The notes below the pieces were generated by a model. That model did no database searches. It was given only the letters and a program-made list of their open reading frames with translations, and had not been told where the DNA came from. From the NCBI RefSeq assembly GCF_001428435.1, contig NZ_LMSO01000007.1, positions 62,001 through 126,000 on the forward strand: a stretch of 64,000 nt of DNA. The letters run 5' to 3'. This document shows, one piece after another, positions 57,957 to 64,000 of this stretch. The position numbers and the translations under genes were made by a program. Origin of the DNA: Arthrobacter sp. Soil782. Lineage in GTDB: Bacteria > Actinomycetota > Actinomycetes > Actinomycetales > Micrococcaceae. Positions within the stretch are counted from its first letter, which is position 1. Every line of letters starts with the position of its first letter.

Positions 57957-58949
57957 TCAGCCCAGGAAACCGGGCGCGATCAGCAGGGCGGTAGGCACGG
58001 TCAGCAGCAGCGCCGATGTGGCGAGGGCCGCGAAGGTCTGTGCGGGGGTGAGCGGCGCCTGCGGCTCGAGCAGGCGGCGCAGCCGGTGAACCGTTGAGAG
58101 CGAGGCATCATCCTGCTCGGGATCTTGCGTTGCTGCGGCATCGGCCAGTACATGATCCTGTGTCTCGCCCGAATGCCCGTGTGAAACAGACGGACCGTGC
58201 GAGCCCGTCGCCACAATGGCTATTGCTCCTACAAGGGTCTCCTGGTCCACTTCCTTGACGGCCTCGTCGTCCGCGAGCATCTCGATCAGCTCATTGACCG
58301 ACCGCTGCGCCAGGCGCGACGTCGGCAGCCACGGGAGCGCTGAACGCCAGGCCGCAAAAGCCCAGAGCAGCAGGTGATGCCGCTGGCTCAGATGGGCACG
58401 CTCATGCACGAGAACGGCCCGCAGTTCATCTTCGGAGAGCAGCCCCATCAGGCCGTCGGAGAGGACCGTAACGGAGCGTGCGCCGCCGGGCAGGCAATAG
58501 GCAACCGGGGCCGGGTGCTTGATCACCAGCGTGGAGGGGTTGGTGCGTGAGGGTGAACTCAGCAGATTCAGCAGGTTGCGGTGCCGTCGTCGTTGGCCCT
58601 TGATCCGCGCATAGGTGATCAGCAGGGTGAACACGAGGTGCGCGGTCAGGAGGCTTGCGGCGCTGAGTGCGAAGACGTGGACGAGGCCGAGAGTGTCTGC
58701 CGGGCGGTTATTCACCAGGATGTCCCAGAGGCCGTGCAACGCTTCGAGCAGATTATCTCCCAGCGGTTCCAGTCCCCACACCAGCATGGCGCCGATCATT
58801 GAAAGACCTCCGGCGAGCGCAATTGCCTGCCACAGGATCATCGCGGTGAACGGCGAGCGTGAGGGCCACTGTGCGCGGGAAAGGGCGATCGGTGCGGGCC
58901 ATGCCAGAATCACGGCCAGCGCCGCCAGGAAGTGGGAGACCCAGAACAT
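57957..58949 (-). CDS. M56 family (BlaR1-like) membrane metalloprotease
   Basis: A 330-residue membrane protein with about four N-terminal and central hydrophobic segments and one at the C-terminus (about 305-328). The zinc protease motif H182-E-R-A-H186 lies in a cytoplasmic domain. It has no C-terminal penicillin-binding sensor domain, unlike BlaR1, so beta-lactams are unlikely to be its direct signal. It follows blaI by 5 bases and would cut or inactivate that repressor on an unknown membrane or redox signal. Confidence 0.92.
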   Translation of the reverse strand: MFWVSHFLAALAVILAWPAPIALSRAQWPSRSPFTAMILWQAIALAGGLSMIGAMLVWGLEPLGDNLLEALHGLWDILVNNRPADTLGLVHVFALSAASLLTAHLVFTLLITYARIKGQRRRHRNLLNLLSSPSRTNPSTLVIKHPAPVAYCLPGGARSVTVLSDGLMGLLSEDELRAVLVHERAHLSQRHHLLLWAFAAWRSALPWLPTSRLAQRSVNELIEMLADDEAVKEVDQETLVGAIAIVATGSHGPSVSHGHSGETQDHVLADAAATQDPEQDDASLSTVHRLRRLLEPQAPLTPAQTFAALATSALLLTVPTALLIAPGFLG

Positions 58950-58954
58950 GGCGG

Positions 58955-59326
58955 CTAGTTGCTGCCCAGGAGCCGCCGGAGTGTGCGGGCCTCGCTCTCA
59001 GAGACACTGCCGATGAAGCGGGCCAGTACAGCTTCGCGGTCGGGAGCGGTTACCAGTACCTCATGCATGAGCTCCGCCGTGTGGTCTTCGCGGCTGGTCA
59101 CGGCGCGGTAGCGGTGAGGGCGGGTGTCGCGTTCACGCTCAACCAGGCCCTTCTTCTCGAGCCGGGACAGGACGGTCAACACCGTGGTGACCGCGAGTTC
59201 CTTGCCTTCCGCCGTACCTTCAGGAGCTAGCGCCAATGCATCACGAAGAGTGTTCGCGGTCATGGCCTCCTGGGTGCCCCACAGTAGGTCCATCACTGTG
59301 CGTTCGAGTTCACCGAGCGTGGCCAT
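58955..59326 (-). CDS. blaI: BlaI/MecI/CopY family repressor
   Basis: A 123-residue winged-helix repressor. The DNA-binding domain (about 1-80) includes L-G-E-L-E-R-T-V-M-D-L-L-W and T-V-L-T-V-L-S-R-L-E-K-K-G-L-V; the C-terminal part (about 85-123) is helical and dimerises. ATG 59326 has an AAAGGA site 6 bases upstream, better than the longer frame to 59392. Three matching palindromes lie in its divergent promoter region with cydA, so it probably controls both itself and the cyd genes. Confidence 0.93.
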   Translation of the reverse strand: MATLGELERTVMDLLWGTQEAMTANTLRDALALAPEGTAEGKELAVTTVLTVLSRLEKKGLVERERDTRPHRYRAVTSREDHTAELMHEVLVTAPDREAVLARFIGSVSESEARTLRRLLGSN

Positions 59327-59424
59327 TCTTATTCCTTTGTTGATCCTGATCTGCGGCTGGACGGACTGATTGCGGTGCAATACCACTTCCAACCCGTCTT
59401 AATCTACAGCTTTTTCGCGCAAGG

Positions 59425-59441
59425 TTCTACGTCATGTAGAA
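59425..59441. promoter_or_regulatory. BlaI operator-like palindrome 1
   Basis: TTCTAC-gtcat-GTAGAA, a 17-bp site nearest blaI (99 bases from its start). It shares both arms exactly with two further copies and resembles the TAC-ATGTA type sites of BlaI-family repressors. Confidence 0.75.
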
Positions 59442-59457
59442 GTGTGCGGGAAAGTTG

Positions 59458-59474
59458 TTCTACGATATGTAGAA
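59458..59474. promoter_or_regulatory. BlaI operator-like palindrome 2
   Basis: TTCTAC-gatat-GTAGAA, with arms identical to site 1 and starting 33 bp from it. It overlaps a possible -10 hexamer TAGAAT (59470-59475). Confidence 0.75.
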
Positions 59475-59480
59475 TATCTT

Positions 59481-59497
59481 TTCTACAGAGCGTAGAA
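59481..59497. promoter_or_regulatory. BlaI operator-like palindrome 3
   Basis: TTCTAC-agagc-GTAGAA, with arms identical to sites 1 and 2 and 23 bp from site 2. It is the copy nearest cydA, 40 bases before its GTG. Confidence 0.75.
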
Positions 59498-59537
59498 GTC
59501 GCTCAAACATCGCCAGTGCTTGAGGAATTGAGGACCT

Positions 59538-61112
59538 GTGGAGGCACTTGAAATTGCACGGTGGCAGTTCGGTATCACCACCGTGTACCACTTTCTGATG
59601 GTGCCGCTGACGATAGGGCTTGGCCTCGTTGTCGCTGTCATGCAGACCCTCTGGTACCGGACGGGCAAGGACCATTACCTGCGGATGACGAAGTTCTGGG
59701 GGAAGCTCTTCCTCATCAACTTCATCATGGGGGTTGCAACTGGACTGGTGCAGGAGTTCCAGTTCGGGCTCGCGTGGAGCGAGTACAGCCGGTTCGTAGG
59801 CGATGTCTTCGGTGCGCCGCTTGCCATGGAAGCGCTGCTTGCGTTCTTCGTCGAATCGACCTTCCTGGGCCTGTGGATCTTCGGTTGGCAGCGGCTGCCG
59901 AAGGTGCTGCACCTTGGAGCGCTGTGGGCCGCAGTCGTGGCGTCGGTATTCTCTGCCTACTTCATCATCGTTGCGAACTCCTGGATGCAGCATCCCGTGG
60001 GCGTCGAGCTCGTGGACGGCCGTGCCCGCATGGTGGACGCCTGGGCAGTGTTCACGAACAACACCGCCCTCGTCGCCTTCACCCACACCATCTTCGGTGC
60101 CCTCGCTGTTGCGGGCGGCTTCCTGCTCGGTATTGCCTGGTACCACCTCTGGAAGCGGCGCCGTGACGGGCTGGACACGGTCGACGGCGACGGGAAGGTC
60201 GTCGTCGGAACTGACACTTTCGGTTCCCGCGGAGTGATTGACCACCAGGTGTGGCTGCGCTCAGCGCGGATCGGCGCCGTCGTCGCGTTGATTTCCTTCG
60301 CCGGAACCGCAGTGTCAGGTGATCTGCAGGCAAAGCTGATGTTTGAGCAGCAGCCCATGAAGATGGCGGCAGCGGAAGCCGCCTGCCACGATGGAACCGG
60401 CTTCTCGGTCCTCTCGGTCGGCAACCTGGGATCGCAGGACTGCGACGACATCGTTGCGGTTTTCGAGGTTCCGGGCCTGCTGTCCTTCCTTGCGAACGGT
60501 GACTTCACTACCGAAGTGAAAGGCGTGAACACGCTCCTGCCCGAGTACAAGGAGCAGTACGGACAGACCCTGCCGGACGATCCGATGTACGGCGAGCGCG
60601 CCGGCATGAGCATTGACTACCTGCCGGTCATGGAAGTCACCTATTGGGGCTTCCGCATCATGATCGGCTTCGGCGCACTCGCCGCCTTCGCTGCCCTGGT
60701 AGCCCTGTGGATTCTGCGGAAGGGGACGGTCCCTGAGTCCCGCTGGCTGATGCGGCTTGCGGTGTTCGGAATCCTCGCGCCTTTCGGGGCCAACTCCGCG
60801 GGCTGGATCTTCACGGAAATGGGCCGCCAGCCGTTTGTCGTGGCGCCCAACCCTGACCCCAGCGGCATCGACGGCGTCTTCATGTTCACGGCCGCCGCAG
60901 TGTCGCCGGGGGTATCGCTCGCCGAACTCGTCTTCTCGCTGGTCGCGCTCACTCTGGTCTATGCCGTCCTGCTGGTCGTCGAAGTGAAGCTGCTCTTCAC
61001 CTACGTGCGTGGTGGGGTTGCCTCCGCCATGCCGGAGTTGGCTGCCAGGCACGATGACGACAGTTCCTCACGCGGAAAGGACGACGACGATGTGCTCTCC
61101 TTTGCCTACTGA
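59538..61112 (+). CDS. cydA: Cytochrome bd quinol oxidase subunit I CydA
   Basis: A 524-residue membrane subunit that binds hemes b558, b595 and d and oxidises quinol with reduction of oxygen to water. His18 (T-T-V-Y-H) corresponds to the E. coli b595 ligand His19, and H-T-I-F-G-A supplies another heme ligand. The conserved G-R-Q-P motif is followed by Phe where E. coli has Trp. About nine membrane segments are present and the Q loop is of the short type. A GAGGA site precedes GTG 59538. It is the first gene of cydA-cydB-cydDC and diverges from blaI. Confidence 0.96.
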   Translation: MEALEIARWQFGITTVYHFLMVPLTIGLGLVVAVMQTLWYRTGKDHYLRMTKFWGKLFLINFIMGVATGLVQEFQFGLAWSEYSRFVGDVFGAPLAMEALLAFFVESTFLGLWIFGWQRLPKVLHLGALWAAVVASVFSAYFIIVANSWMQHPVGVELVDGRARMVDAWAVFTNNTALVAFTHTIFGALAVAGGFLLGIAWYHLWKRRRDGLDTVDGDGKVVVGTDTFGSRGVIDHQVWLRSARIGAVVALISFAGTAVSGDLQAKLMFEQQPMKMAAAEAACHDGTGFSVLSVGNLGSQDCDDIVAVFEVPGLLSFLANGDFTTEVKGVNTLLPEYKEQYGQTLPDDPMYGERAGMSIDYLPVMEVTYWGFRIMIGFGALAAFAALVALWILRKGTVPESRWLMRLAVFGILAPFGANSAGWIFTEMGRQPFVVAPNPDPSGIDGVFMFTAAAVSPGVSLAELVFSLVALTLVYAVLLVVEVKLLFTYVRGGVASAMPELAARHDDDSSSRGKDDDDVLSFAY

Positions 61113-61151: not shown

Positions 61152-62174
61152 ATGACCGAGCTCCTGCCCACGATCTGGTTCATCCTGATCAGCGTGTTGT
61201 GGACCGGCTTTCTCTTCCTTGAGGGGTTCGACCTCGGCGTCGGAATGCTGATGAAGCTGTTCGCGCGAACCGACCGGGAACGGAGGGTCCTCCTCAACAC
61301 GGTTGGGCCGGTCTGGGACGGCAACGAGGTCTGGCTCGTCACCGCGGTAGGTGCAACTCTCGCCGCCTTTCCGCTCTGGTATGCCTCGCTGCTTTCCACG
61401 CTCTACCTGCCCTTCATCCTGGTGCTCCTCGCACTCATTTTCCGGGCAGTCGCCTTCGAGTACCGCGGAAAGATGAACAGCGACCAGTGGCGCCGCCGCT
61501 GGGATTTGGCGATCTTCCTCGGCTCCTTCACCGCAGCGGCTGGAATCGGCGCCGCACTCGCCTTGACCACCTCCGGACTTCCGCTCAACGAGAACGGTGA
61601 CCGGGTGGGCGGGCCATTCGTCTGGGTTACGTTTGACGCCTTCCTTGGCGCGGCCGCCGTCGTCCTCTTCTGCCTCGCCCACGCTCTGGCGTTCCTGGTG
61701 CTGAAGACCGACGGGCCCATCCGGGAACGAGCGAGAAAGCTCCTGATACGGCTGCTGCCGCTCGCCGTCGTGCCGTTGCTGCTTTGGGCAGCGACAGTGC
61801 ACCTGGCCGGCGGAACCGTGTGGACCGGTCTTATCCTTGCCGTCGCCGTAGCTGCGGCGGCTGCATCCTGGTTTGCCGAGTGGTCCTCACATGATGGCTG
61901 GGGTTTCATCTGGCTGGGTGCCGCGCTGGCGGCTTCGCTGGCATGCATCTTCGGCTCGGCCTATCCGGTCGTGTTGCCGTCAACGCTCAGCGACGCCTTC
62001 AACCTCACGGTGGAGAACGCTTCGAGCTCGCCATACACCCTCGGATTGATGAGCATCGTCGCCGCTGTCGGGGTGCCCCTCGTGCTCGCCTACCAGGGCT
62101 GGACCTACTGGGTCTTCCGGAAGCGCGTCACCGAAAAGAGCATCCCCGACGCACACTCGGTGAGCCCCCTGTGA
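61152..62174 (+). CDS. cydB: Cytochrome bd quinol oxidase subunit II CydB
   Basis: A 340-residue subunit with about eight or nine membrane segments, the partner of CydA. The N-terminus has F-L-E-G-F-D-L-G-V-G-M-L, followed by G-P-V-W-D-G-N-E-V-W-L, which are the hallmark CydB stretches. The gene starts 39 bases after cydA, and its TGA overlaps the GTG of the transporter gene by 4 bases. Confidence 0.96.
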   Translation: MTELLPTIWFILISVLWTGFLFLEGFDLGVGMLMKLFARTDRERRVLLNTVGPVWDGNEVWLVTAVGATLAAFPLWYASLLSTLYLPFILVLLALIFRAVAFEYRGKMNSDQWRRRWDLAIFLGSFTAAAGIGAALALTTSGLPLNENGDRVGGPFVWVTFDAFLGAAAVVLFCLAHALAFLVLKTDGPIRERARKLLIRLLPLAVVPLLLWAATVHLAGGTVWTGLILAVAVAAAAASWFAEWSSHDGWGFIWLGAALAASLACIFGSAYPVVLPSTLSDAFNLTVENASSSPYTLGLMSIVAAVGVPLVLAYQGWTYWVFRKRVTEKSIPDAHSVSPL

Positions 62175-64000
62175 TCGACCGGCTCCTGGCCCGCGGCCCC
62201 GCCGGCATGTCCGTTCCGGTTCGTCCCGTGTACCTCCTCGGTGTTCTTGCTGCGGTCAAGGCAGTGGGGCTGGTCTTGGTCGCGGAAGCGATCGCCCGCG
62301 GCGTCGCGGCTCTCGCCGGCGGTGCCCTGCCCTCGAGCGACCTGTTGGAGCTCGGGGTGGCGGGTGCAGTGCTGCGCGCAGGCGCTGCCTGGGCGCAGCA
62401 GGGAACCGCTCAGCGCCTGGCATACGGCGTGAAGGAGCGGCTGCGGCGTGAGGCGCTTGAGCGCGTGCTTTCCGACGGCGGAACCACGAGTGGGAAGCAG
62501 GGTACGGGCGCGCTCAGCGTGCTCCTCACCCGCGGGTTGGACGGCCTCGACAAGTACCACACGCAATACCTCCCCGCGCTTGTCACCTGCGCGGTGGTTC
62601 CTCTCCTGATCGGCGCGCGCATTCTGGCTGCGGATTGGGTGAGCGCCGCGGTGATCGTCCTGACCATCCCGCTGATCCCCGTCTTCATGGTGTTGATCGG
62701 TTGGCACACGCAGGACAGGACAGCTGAGGCGAGAGCGTCGCTCGATCGGCTCTCGGACCATCTGCTGGAACTCGCAAAAGGGCTGCCCGCCCTCGTTGGA
62801 CTCGGCAGGGCAAGTGCCCAGACGCGGGCGCTGGAGGACATCGGCACCGGCTACTCCCGCCGGACCATGGAGACACTGCGCATCGCCTTCCTGTCATCCC
62901 TCGCGCTCGAACTGATCAGCACGATTTCAGTGGCGGTCGTGGCCGTGTTCGTGGGCGTGCGGCTGATCCACGGCGAGGTGGGGCTTGAAGTGGGCCTGCT
63001 CGCCCTGATCCTCGCGCCGGAGTGCTACCTGCCGCTGCGGGACCTGGGGGCCGCGCACCATGCGAGCGACGACGGGCTGGAGGCAGGACGGGCGGTGCGG
63101 CACATCATCGATGCGCCACGGACGTCCGCCGCCGTGCCGGTCGGCCGCCCGGAAAACGCCGACGACGGTGCGTCCGGCGCCGAAGGCCTCACCCTGCGCT
63201 TCGAAGGCTCAGAGGCACCGATCGTTGAGAATCTCACCTTCCGCCTGTCCCCGGGGATCACTGCGCTGAGGGGTCCCAGCGGTTCCGGCAAGTCAACGCT
63301 GATGGGGCTACTGGCAGGAGTTCCCCAGCCCGGCCTTCACATTGATGGCGCGGTCAGGCCGCTCAGCGGCCCGCTCGGTTGGGTGCCGCAGCATCCCGAG
63401 CCGCTGATGGACACCGTTCGTGAAGAACTTGCCTTCTACGCGGAGTCACCGCTGGAAGACCAGGCGCTTCTTGGGCTGCTTGCGGCAGTGGACGGAAGCC
63501 AGTTGCTGGAGAAGTCCACCGGAGAACTGAGCCCGGGCGAACTCCGGAGGGTTGCGCTGGCCAGGGCCCTGCTGCGCACCGGGCCCGCCGGGGGAACATT
63601 GCTGCTCGATGAACCCACCGCCCACGTGGATGAGAACAGCTCGGCGGTTATCCGCCGAACAGTACGAAACCTGCCGTCAACGGTAACTGTTGTGCTGATC
63701 GCCCATGATGAACAGACCGCACGCCTCGCCGACCGCACGGTCGACCTCGGGTCAGCCCGAAGCCTGGCTACAGCGCCGCACACCGCGCACACCCAGAATC
63801 GAACGGGCGGAAATAACCCCGACCTGCGCGAAACCTCGCCATCTGCGCCTGCTCGATCCGGGTTGGCCGAGCCCATGATGGGCCACGGGACCGTTCGGAC
63901 AGCCCTGCGAGCGCTCGCACTGGTGCGCCCATGGTCCCCCCGGTTCCTCGCAGCACTCGCTTTCGGTACGGGCTCGTCTGTTTTCGCCGTGGCCCTCACA
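62171..64000 (+). CDS. cydDC: CydD-CydC fused ABC exporter, 5' part
   Basis: An open frame of 610 codons runs from GTG 62171 to the window end. The CydD half has an ABC membrane domain (about 15-310) and an ATPase domain with Walker A G-P-S-G-S-G-K-S-T (368-376), signature L-S-P-G-E (453-457) and Walker B L-L-L-D-E (477-481). The frame then continues without a stop through a linker and into a second membrane domain (R-P-W near residue 587), the expected start of CydC. The CydDC exporter moves thiols needed for cytochrome bd assembly. The GTG overlaps the cydB stop. Confidence 0.9.
   Translation, partial: MIDRLLARGPAGMSVPVRPVYLLGVLAAVKAVGLVLVAEAIARGVAALAGGALPSSDLLELGVAGAVLRAGAAWAQQGTAQRLAYGVKERLRREALERVLSDGGTTSGKQGTGALSVLLTRGLDGLDKYHTQYLPALVTCAVVPLLIGARILAADWVSAAVIVLTIPLIPVFMVLIGWHTQDRTAEARASLDRLSDHLLELAKGLPALVGLGRASAQTRALEDIGTGYSRRTMETLRIAFLSSLALELISTISVAVVAVFVGVRLIHGEVGLEVGLLALILAPECYLPLRDLGAAHHASDDGLEAGRAVRHIIDAPRTSAAVPVGRPENADDGASGAEGLTLRFEGSEAPIVENLTFRLSPGITALRGPSGSGKSTLMGLLAGVPQPGLHIDGAVRPLSGPLGWVPQHPEPLMDTVREELAFYAESPLEDQALLGLLAAVDGSQLLEKSTGELSPGELRRVALARALLRTGPAGGTLLLDEPTAHVDENSSAVIRRTVRNLPSTVTVVLIAHDEQTARLADRTVDLGSARSLATAPHTAHTQNRTGGNNPDLRETSPSAPARSGLAEPMMGHGTVRTALRALALVRPWSPRFLAALAFGTGSSVFAVALT

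Follow-up and report, generated by a model that had tools for sequence, protein, structure and literature searches.

In Arthrobacter sp. Soil782, genes for a BlaI-family repressor and a membrane metalloprotease lie beside the cytochrome bd oxidase genes. Very probably, to judge from comparison of related genomes, BlaI acts through a compact palindromic operator on itself, on cydA, and on a wider respiratory gene set. The sites, their architecture, the genes they precede, and, within the family, their dependence on the presence of blaI all emerge at the level of such comparisons. The window analyzed here is the whole stretch of 64,000 nucleotides that contains the locus.

The blaI ATG (position 59326, minus strand) and the cydA GTG (position 59538) delimit a divergent gap of 211 bp. 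The protease gene is located downstream of blaI, while cydB, and then a fused cydDC-type frame, are located downstream of cydA (Table 1). BlaI scores above the Pfam cut-off for PF03965 (Penicillinase_R; 78.3 versus 22.6 bits), and a PDB sequence comparison at E <= 0.001 matched it to M. tuberculosis BlaI, 2G9W, alone (66.6 bits). Among the matches listed, the closest named relatives of BlaI are from an uncultured Arthrobacter isolate and Arthrobacter subterraneus (98%), and the closest named relative of the protease is from Arthrobacter tumbae (94%). A CopY/TcrY identity for BlaI is ruled out: its score against the NCBIfam CopY_TcrY model (TIGR02698), 29.6 bits, falls far under the cut-off of 121.95 bits. 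The cydDC frame presumably starts at a GTG overlapping the cydB stop; a 1127-aa frame in locus L216, similar to fused cydDC, contains two ABC_tran matches. Elsewhere in the genome, a 174-aa open frame (L022, C1:1116674-1116823) yields a second, partial PF03965 match of 27.2 bits and is a possible further BlaI/MarR-like regulator.

Table 1. Genes, operators, and probable promoter element of the blaI–cydA locus, in window coordinates.
Feature	Position	Strand	Remarks
M56/M48-like, BlaR1-like membrane metalloprotease gene	57957..58949	-	330 aa; HERAH zinc motif; 4 hydropathy-predicted membrane helices
blaI, CopY/BlaI-family winged-helix repressor	58955..59326	-	123 aa; PF03965 78.3 bits
Probable blaI -10 box, TAGATT	59401..59406	-	Placed by hand, inferred; 17 bp from TAGAAC inside operator 1
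Operator 1, blaI-proximal single site	59425..59441	.	Exact match; overlaps probable blaI -35 box
Operator 2, distal member of cydA tandem pair	59458..59474	.	Exact match
Operator 3, proximal member of cydA pair	59481..59497	.	Exact match; centre 49 bp upstream of cydA start
cydA, cytochrome bd oxidase subunit I	59538..61112	+	PF01654 503.5 bits
cydB, cytochrome bd oxidase subunit II	61152..62174	+	PF02322 326 bits; TIGR00203 266.1 bits (cut-off 117.3)
Fused cydDC-type ABC transporter gene	62171..64000	+	Open frame, continues past window end; identity by eye

A first-pass annotation of this DNA had reported three TTCTAC-N5-GTAGAA palindromes with six identical arms between blaI and cydA, and all three are indeed exact matches. 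The 13 other matches in the window each carry two or three mismatches. Genome-wide, 8 exact sites are present versus 2 for a reversed control pattern, and 18 versus 6 when one mismatch is allowed; at up to two mismatches the excess disappears (63 versus 124). Exact sites occur in all 24 same-genus genomes, our own among them, at 3-11 per genome (0-2 for the reversed control), and 14 genomes belonging to other families of the order contain none. An intergenic alignment of 11 rows, 10 of them distinct (L048 is identical to L125), comprising the window and relatives picked from the loci in hand, reveals where conservation is concentrated: the arm columns are invariant (36/36), compared with 1/15 spacer columns and 17/168 remaining columns. 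This alignment allowed no confident placement of the cydA promoter. The half site TCTAC, also remarked on in the first-pass annotation, is present at 59403-59407, but a role as an operator half did not hold up. At this position related species read GTACGTT or GGTATCC; thus, the half site is not retained. It probably lies mostly inside the blaI -10 box, and, as it varies in the alignment like such a box, it is ruled out as a fourth operator.

The three palindromes divide into one operator for blaI and two for cydA. An exact site adjoins blaI in the 30 best-scoring loci of the family, our own among them, and in all 80 named blaI loci, which are the best 80 of 568 and all close relatives from the same family; the protease gene is likewise present in 80 of 80. 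In 74 of the named loci, cydA lies upstream of and divergent from blaI, and the site count there is three (62 loci), two (11 loci), or one (L165, in which cydA is 3.8 kb distant). The 6 named loci that lack cydA have exactly one site each. In all 62 three-site loci, the cydA-proximal pair is spaced by 23-26 bp, and the blaI-proximal site is separated from that pair by 21-244 bp and from the blaI start by 70-124 bp. Where blaI and cydA have been separated (genomes G001, G016, G041, and G071), blaI keeps one site and cydA keeps two, 24-25 bp apart. Thus, the sites are correctly placed beside blaI and cydA in the earlier description, but rather than a single array they form a 1 + 2 arrangement. 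A TAC/GTA dyad is present at the apparent promoter of blaI itself in the loci of the family.

The protease exceeds the cut-off for PF01435 (M48; 42.9 versus 20.3 bits) and falls below that for PF05569 (M56; 20.8 versus 31 bits); its relatives are named M56 family metallopeptidase in Arthrobacter records, and some close ones are labelled PF05569. It possesses a HERAH (HEXXH) motif at 182 and four hydropathy helices. There is no SxxK motif and no PBP-like sensor region, and the chain stops 6 residues past the fourth helix, which confirms at the sequence level the earlier remark that a beta-lactam sensor domain is missing. The protein may therefore work like BlaR1, but it is not BlaR1 in the strict sense. 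We consider it probable that this adjacent protease relieves BlaI repression. Alternatively, the protease could handle another envelope substrate, with BlaI released by a ligand, a redox change, or another protein, an arrangement compatible with BlaI owning the operators. That alternative is in keeping with the lack of a sensor domain and with the standing of BlaI cleavage as a prediction, and a passage of PMC5473688 describes WhiB4 or kinases as proposed upstream factors in M. tuberculosis. Against it stands the tight co-conservation of the protease gene with blaI, which extends from the 80 named loci to all 20 of the loci drawn from other families. We regard release without cleavage as unlikely, yet as an alternative to be taken seriously.

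The sites reach well beyond the cyd locus. Every exact site was examined in 12 same-genus genomes (G000, G001, G002, G005, G006, G008, G015, G016, G018, G020, G021, and G023), and all 74 lie near the start of recurrent genes: 36 at blaI/cydA, 12 at qcrC of the bcc complex (NF050122 above cut-off), 12 at hemQ (NF042928 above cut-off), and 5 at hmp, whose products in other genomes are 44-47% identical to the flavohaemoglobin of our genome. The remaining 9 belong to gene sets that were defined from their own sites: hyp111 (4), a group III truncated haemoglobin (2; PDB match 2IG3, no Pfam match), mem199, a membrane protein gene that precedes a YcnI/DUF1775 gene (2), and a rhodopsin gene (1). In our genome, one-mismatch sites additionally precede ctaE, resA-ccdA-resB-ccsA, a CtaG/CopD gene, ctaB, an ABC-ctaA operon, the ATP synthase operon, and sucCD; an exact site lies upstream of resA elsewhere in the genus (L038). 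Three of the 18 sites in our genome at up to one mismatch appear chance-like, two residing inside open frames and one near genes named by eye as toxin-antitoxin-like.

Several individual sites deserve mention. The bacteriorhodopsin-like gene (PF01036; L076:3131-4012, genome G002) has its exact operator roughly 100 bp upstream of the start, which suggests BlaI control of a light-driven pump. The 111-aa protein hyp111 (L007:4111-4443, C1 of our genome), which matches no Pfam or NCBIfam model, has an exact operator upstream here and in further same-genus loci (L080, L095, L235, L039, L040, and L045). The qcrC operator carries the spacer TTCTACTAGAGGTAGAA in identical form in 11 of the 16 same-genus genomes in which a qcrC site was seen (e.g., L077:3031-3047), unlike the other operators, whose spacers vary. 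Finally, hmp (L008:4376-6100, C1 of our genome) combines a BlaI-type operator with an adjacent Rrf2/NsrR-like regulator gene, and thus may be under double control.

The first-pass annotation had named blaI and the cyd genes as targets. Those two targets are strongly supported, but the distribution of sites points to a much wider set. One could maintain that BlaI controls only itself and cydABDC, and that the distal sites are decoys or weak, leaving the wider regulon non-functional. Indeed, three sites are found at the cyd locus only, and the site at the ATP synthase operon is inconsistent, appearing at up to one mismatch in 10 of 23 same-genus genomes, with one locus unscored. However, all 12 of the fully examined genomes have qcrC and hemQ sites, placed at comparable distances from the start of the gene, and the ctaB site (TTCTAC-N5-GTAAAA) and the sucC site (TTCTAC-N5-ATAGAA) are conserved in 24 of 24 same-genus genomes with variable spacers and fixed arms. 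The reversed pattern gives 0 matches at ctaB, sucC, and atp. So narrow a regulon has only a small chance of being the right description. The ctaB site is flanked on its other side by the divergent gene tkt, and either gene may be its target.

A further possibility is that the system responds to beta-lactams and affects respiration as well. Membership of the BlaI/BlaR family is in keeping with this, and a passage of PMC5473688 reports increased blaI-blaR and cydAB transcript levels in M. tuberculosis exposed to amoxicillin-clavulanate. The prospects of this reading are slim, given that the protease carries neither a PBP-like sensor region nor SxxK and that none of the 74 exact sites in the 12 same-genus genomes precedes a beta-lactamase gene. 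As there is no BlaR1-type sensor, and no beta-lactamase among the exact-site targets, the signal most likely originates within the membrane or the respiratory chain. That the cue of the system is respiratory or membrane-related is a reading that we favor with some reserve.

A profile search found BlaI in 108 of 120 genomes of the family. We looked for cydA in 30 chosen genomes, including all 12 without a BlaI match; 23 matched, one of them a fragment that was dropped (G069), leaving 22 cydA promoters. An exact site lies within 450 bp upstream of cydA in 15 of 15 genomes with a BlaI match (one weak, G048), and in 7 of 7 genomes without one, no site is found upstream of cydA even at two mismatches. 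These seven comprise five genomes of genus g17, one of g20, and one of g29, and thus, coming from only three genera, they are not seven independent events; more generally, the genomes compared are related, so the associations between BlaI and site are not independent. Genus g29 provides the presence/absence contrast inside one genus (G080 versus G141). In family f17, all 9 genomes that have blaI carry sites between blaI and cydA, and none of the 4 that lack blaI carries any; genus g50 of that family contributes three genomes against four to the same contrast. The f17 genomes contain 1-3 sites each, fewer than the reversed control gives, and the weight of this evidence lies in their location between blaI and cydA.

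A looser pattern, TNCTAC-N5-GTAGNA, was found in 14 of 16 genomes with a BlaI-profile match versus 2 of 11 without, in a tally that covers 27 genomes from the family and the same order within a 296-genome sample of the class and in which the counts are mostly below the reversed control. Many of the 269 genomes outside that tally have BlaI matches and no such site, including most of family f34. The tie between exact operator and BlaI is thus firm in this family and in f17 and looser beyond, as far as sequence comparison can speak to it. This comparative evidence strongly supports the view that these sites belong to BlaI and that it acts on its own gene and on cydA, and conservation of the motif upstream of cydA in genomes with the blaI–cydA arrangement was checked and held. 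It is hardly credible that a different respiratory regulator, for example of the Rrf2/NsrR or Rex type, binds the palindromes and merely shares targets with blaI: redox and NO regulators classically act on cyd and hmp, and an Rrf2/NsrR-like gene is located directly upstream of hmp and its operator, but that gene was noticed, by eye, beside hmp only, the cydA sites follow the presence and absence of blaI, and the single site stays beside blaI in loci without cydA.

In more distant families, the linkage of blaI to cydA often persists while the operator changes. A blaI gene beside cydA together with a CTAC/GTAG operator is found in f17 (9 loci, with cydA named by eye), f33 (2), f35 (4), f42 (2), and f50 (1), and one f6 locus has the linkage with a weaker box. 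In f17, a cydDC-like gene has a site of its own in 2 loci. We fetched 20 loci around the best BlaI match of other families (f6, f19, f28, f32, f35, f42, and f50). The protease gene is present in each, cydA is absent from the fetched stretch in 12, and 16 have no TAC-N3..6-GTA palindrome within 260 bp upstream of blaI; among those 16 are four f35 loci with CTAC/GTAG boxes of other spacing, seen by eye, and L327, with one box of spacer 6. Two f42 loci (L322 and L323) carry three CTAC/GTAG palindromes of the TACTAC type between divergent blaI and cydA, with different arms and spacing. In L325 (f50), cydA follows the protease gene in the same orientation rather than diverging from blaI. Distal sites in f33 (L201-L205 and L208) include one at a CopC gene (L201) and otherwise display no clear respiratory pattern, and those in L214 and L217 (f17) and L220 (f16, a TACTAC site) have no clear target.

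Our model is as follows. The palindromes would be operators of the neighboring BlaI-family repressor. Operator 1, overlapping the blaI promoter, would mediate autorepression of blaI and the protease gene, and the tandem pair just upstream of cydABDC would mediate BlaI repression of those genes. Single or imperfect operators would bring under BlaI the ctaE-qcrCAB branch, heme synthesis via hemQ, the assembly of cytochrome c and oxidase via resA-ccdA-resB-ccsA and ctaB, as well as the YcnI/copper-type operon, sucC, and the genes for the flavohaemoglobin and the truncated haemoglobin. ATP synthase would be a less certain addition. The four-helix protease most likely would sense a respiratory, heme/copper, or membrane-energy cue and inactivate BlaI, so that the respiratory genes would be raised together. 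In this scheme, we infer BlaI binding, repression rather than activation, proteolysis, and the signal.

The location of the BlaI pair near oxidase genes, together with the recurring sites at heme, cytochrome, and energy genes, suggests that it tunes respiration in soil bacteria. To our knowledge, bcc-aa3/bd switching in actinobacteria, and the matching of heme, copper, and ATP synthase supply, are incompletely understood. A repressor-protease pair with a compact operator that can be read from sequence, and with a defined target list, provides a regulator in harmless soil organisms that can be tested directly. It also recasts an antibiotic-resistance family as a regulator of respiration and offers a simple model for learning what a sensor-less BlaR-type protease detects. 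We tentatively put forward, as a single proposal with somewhat less than even prospects, that BlaI and a sensor-less protease constitute an old Actinomycetes regulator of the energy-converting membrane, that beta-lactam sensing was a later addition elsewhere, and that the pair reads membrane potential, quinol redox state, or heme/copper supply and coordinates proton movers (both oxidase branches, ATP synthase, and, in one species, a light-driven rhodopsin) together with their cofactors. Linkage of blaI, the protease gene, and cydA in seven families (f1, f6, f17, f33, f35, f42, and f50) fits such an old origin.

How does this system compare with known ones? Rex, NsrR, and other redox regulators act on cydAB and hmp; their target genes overlap with those described here, but they belong to different protein families, and the cydA sites here track blaI. 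CopY/TcrY copper repressors share the fold family and the weak NCBIfam match, whereas BlaI here is protease-linked, and copper is at most one branch of its predicted targets. The staphylococcal BlaR1-BlaI and MecR1-MecI systems similarly pair a repressor with a membrane metalloprotease and a TAC/GTA-type operator. Their targets are beta-lactamase or PBP2a; here, by contrast, the sensor domain is absent and the predicted targets are respiratory. Passages of PMC4549145 give TACA/TGTA as the S. aureus BlaI site, which is compatible with TAC-N5-GTA here.

The closest parallel is M. tuberculosis BlaI (Rv1846c)/BlaR (Rv1845c). No title among the matches listed in the open-licence literature concerns a BlaI regulon in Arthrobacter or a blaI-cydA operator; the passages searched in PMC10581053 mention only a blaIII beta-lactamase, and those of PMC11561320, PMC8265638, and PMC4757040 contained nothing decisive. 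Passages of PMC5473688 (eLife 2017) state that M. tuberculosis BlaI binds the cytochrome bd and ATP synthase promoters, for which they cite Sala 2009, that mycobacterial BlaR has no sensor domain, and that blaC is a BlaI target. Binding and repression of Rv1303 of the atp operon is described in passages of PMC12565901, and passages of PMC5874750 also support atp regulation. Along with the 2G9W match, the two systems thus appear to share a sensor-less protease and a cytochrome bd promoter target. Control of a terminal oxidase by a BlaR1/BlaI-like module, which the first-pass annotation held to be notable, is supported here but, in view of that M. tuberculosis precedent, does not represent a new principle. 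None of the titles and passages searched contains the joined module, the operator plan, or the heme/cytochrome/copper/globin regulon. Beyond the M. tuberculosis targets in those sources, the regulon predicted here takes in qcr, hem, cytochrome c assembly, ctaB, hmp, the truncated haemoglobin, the YcnI operon, and sucC, and, unlike blaC there, no beta-lactamase here has an exact site. Here, the blaI-protease pair is physically joined to cydABDC, with a 1 + 2 operator plan.
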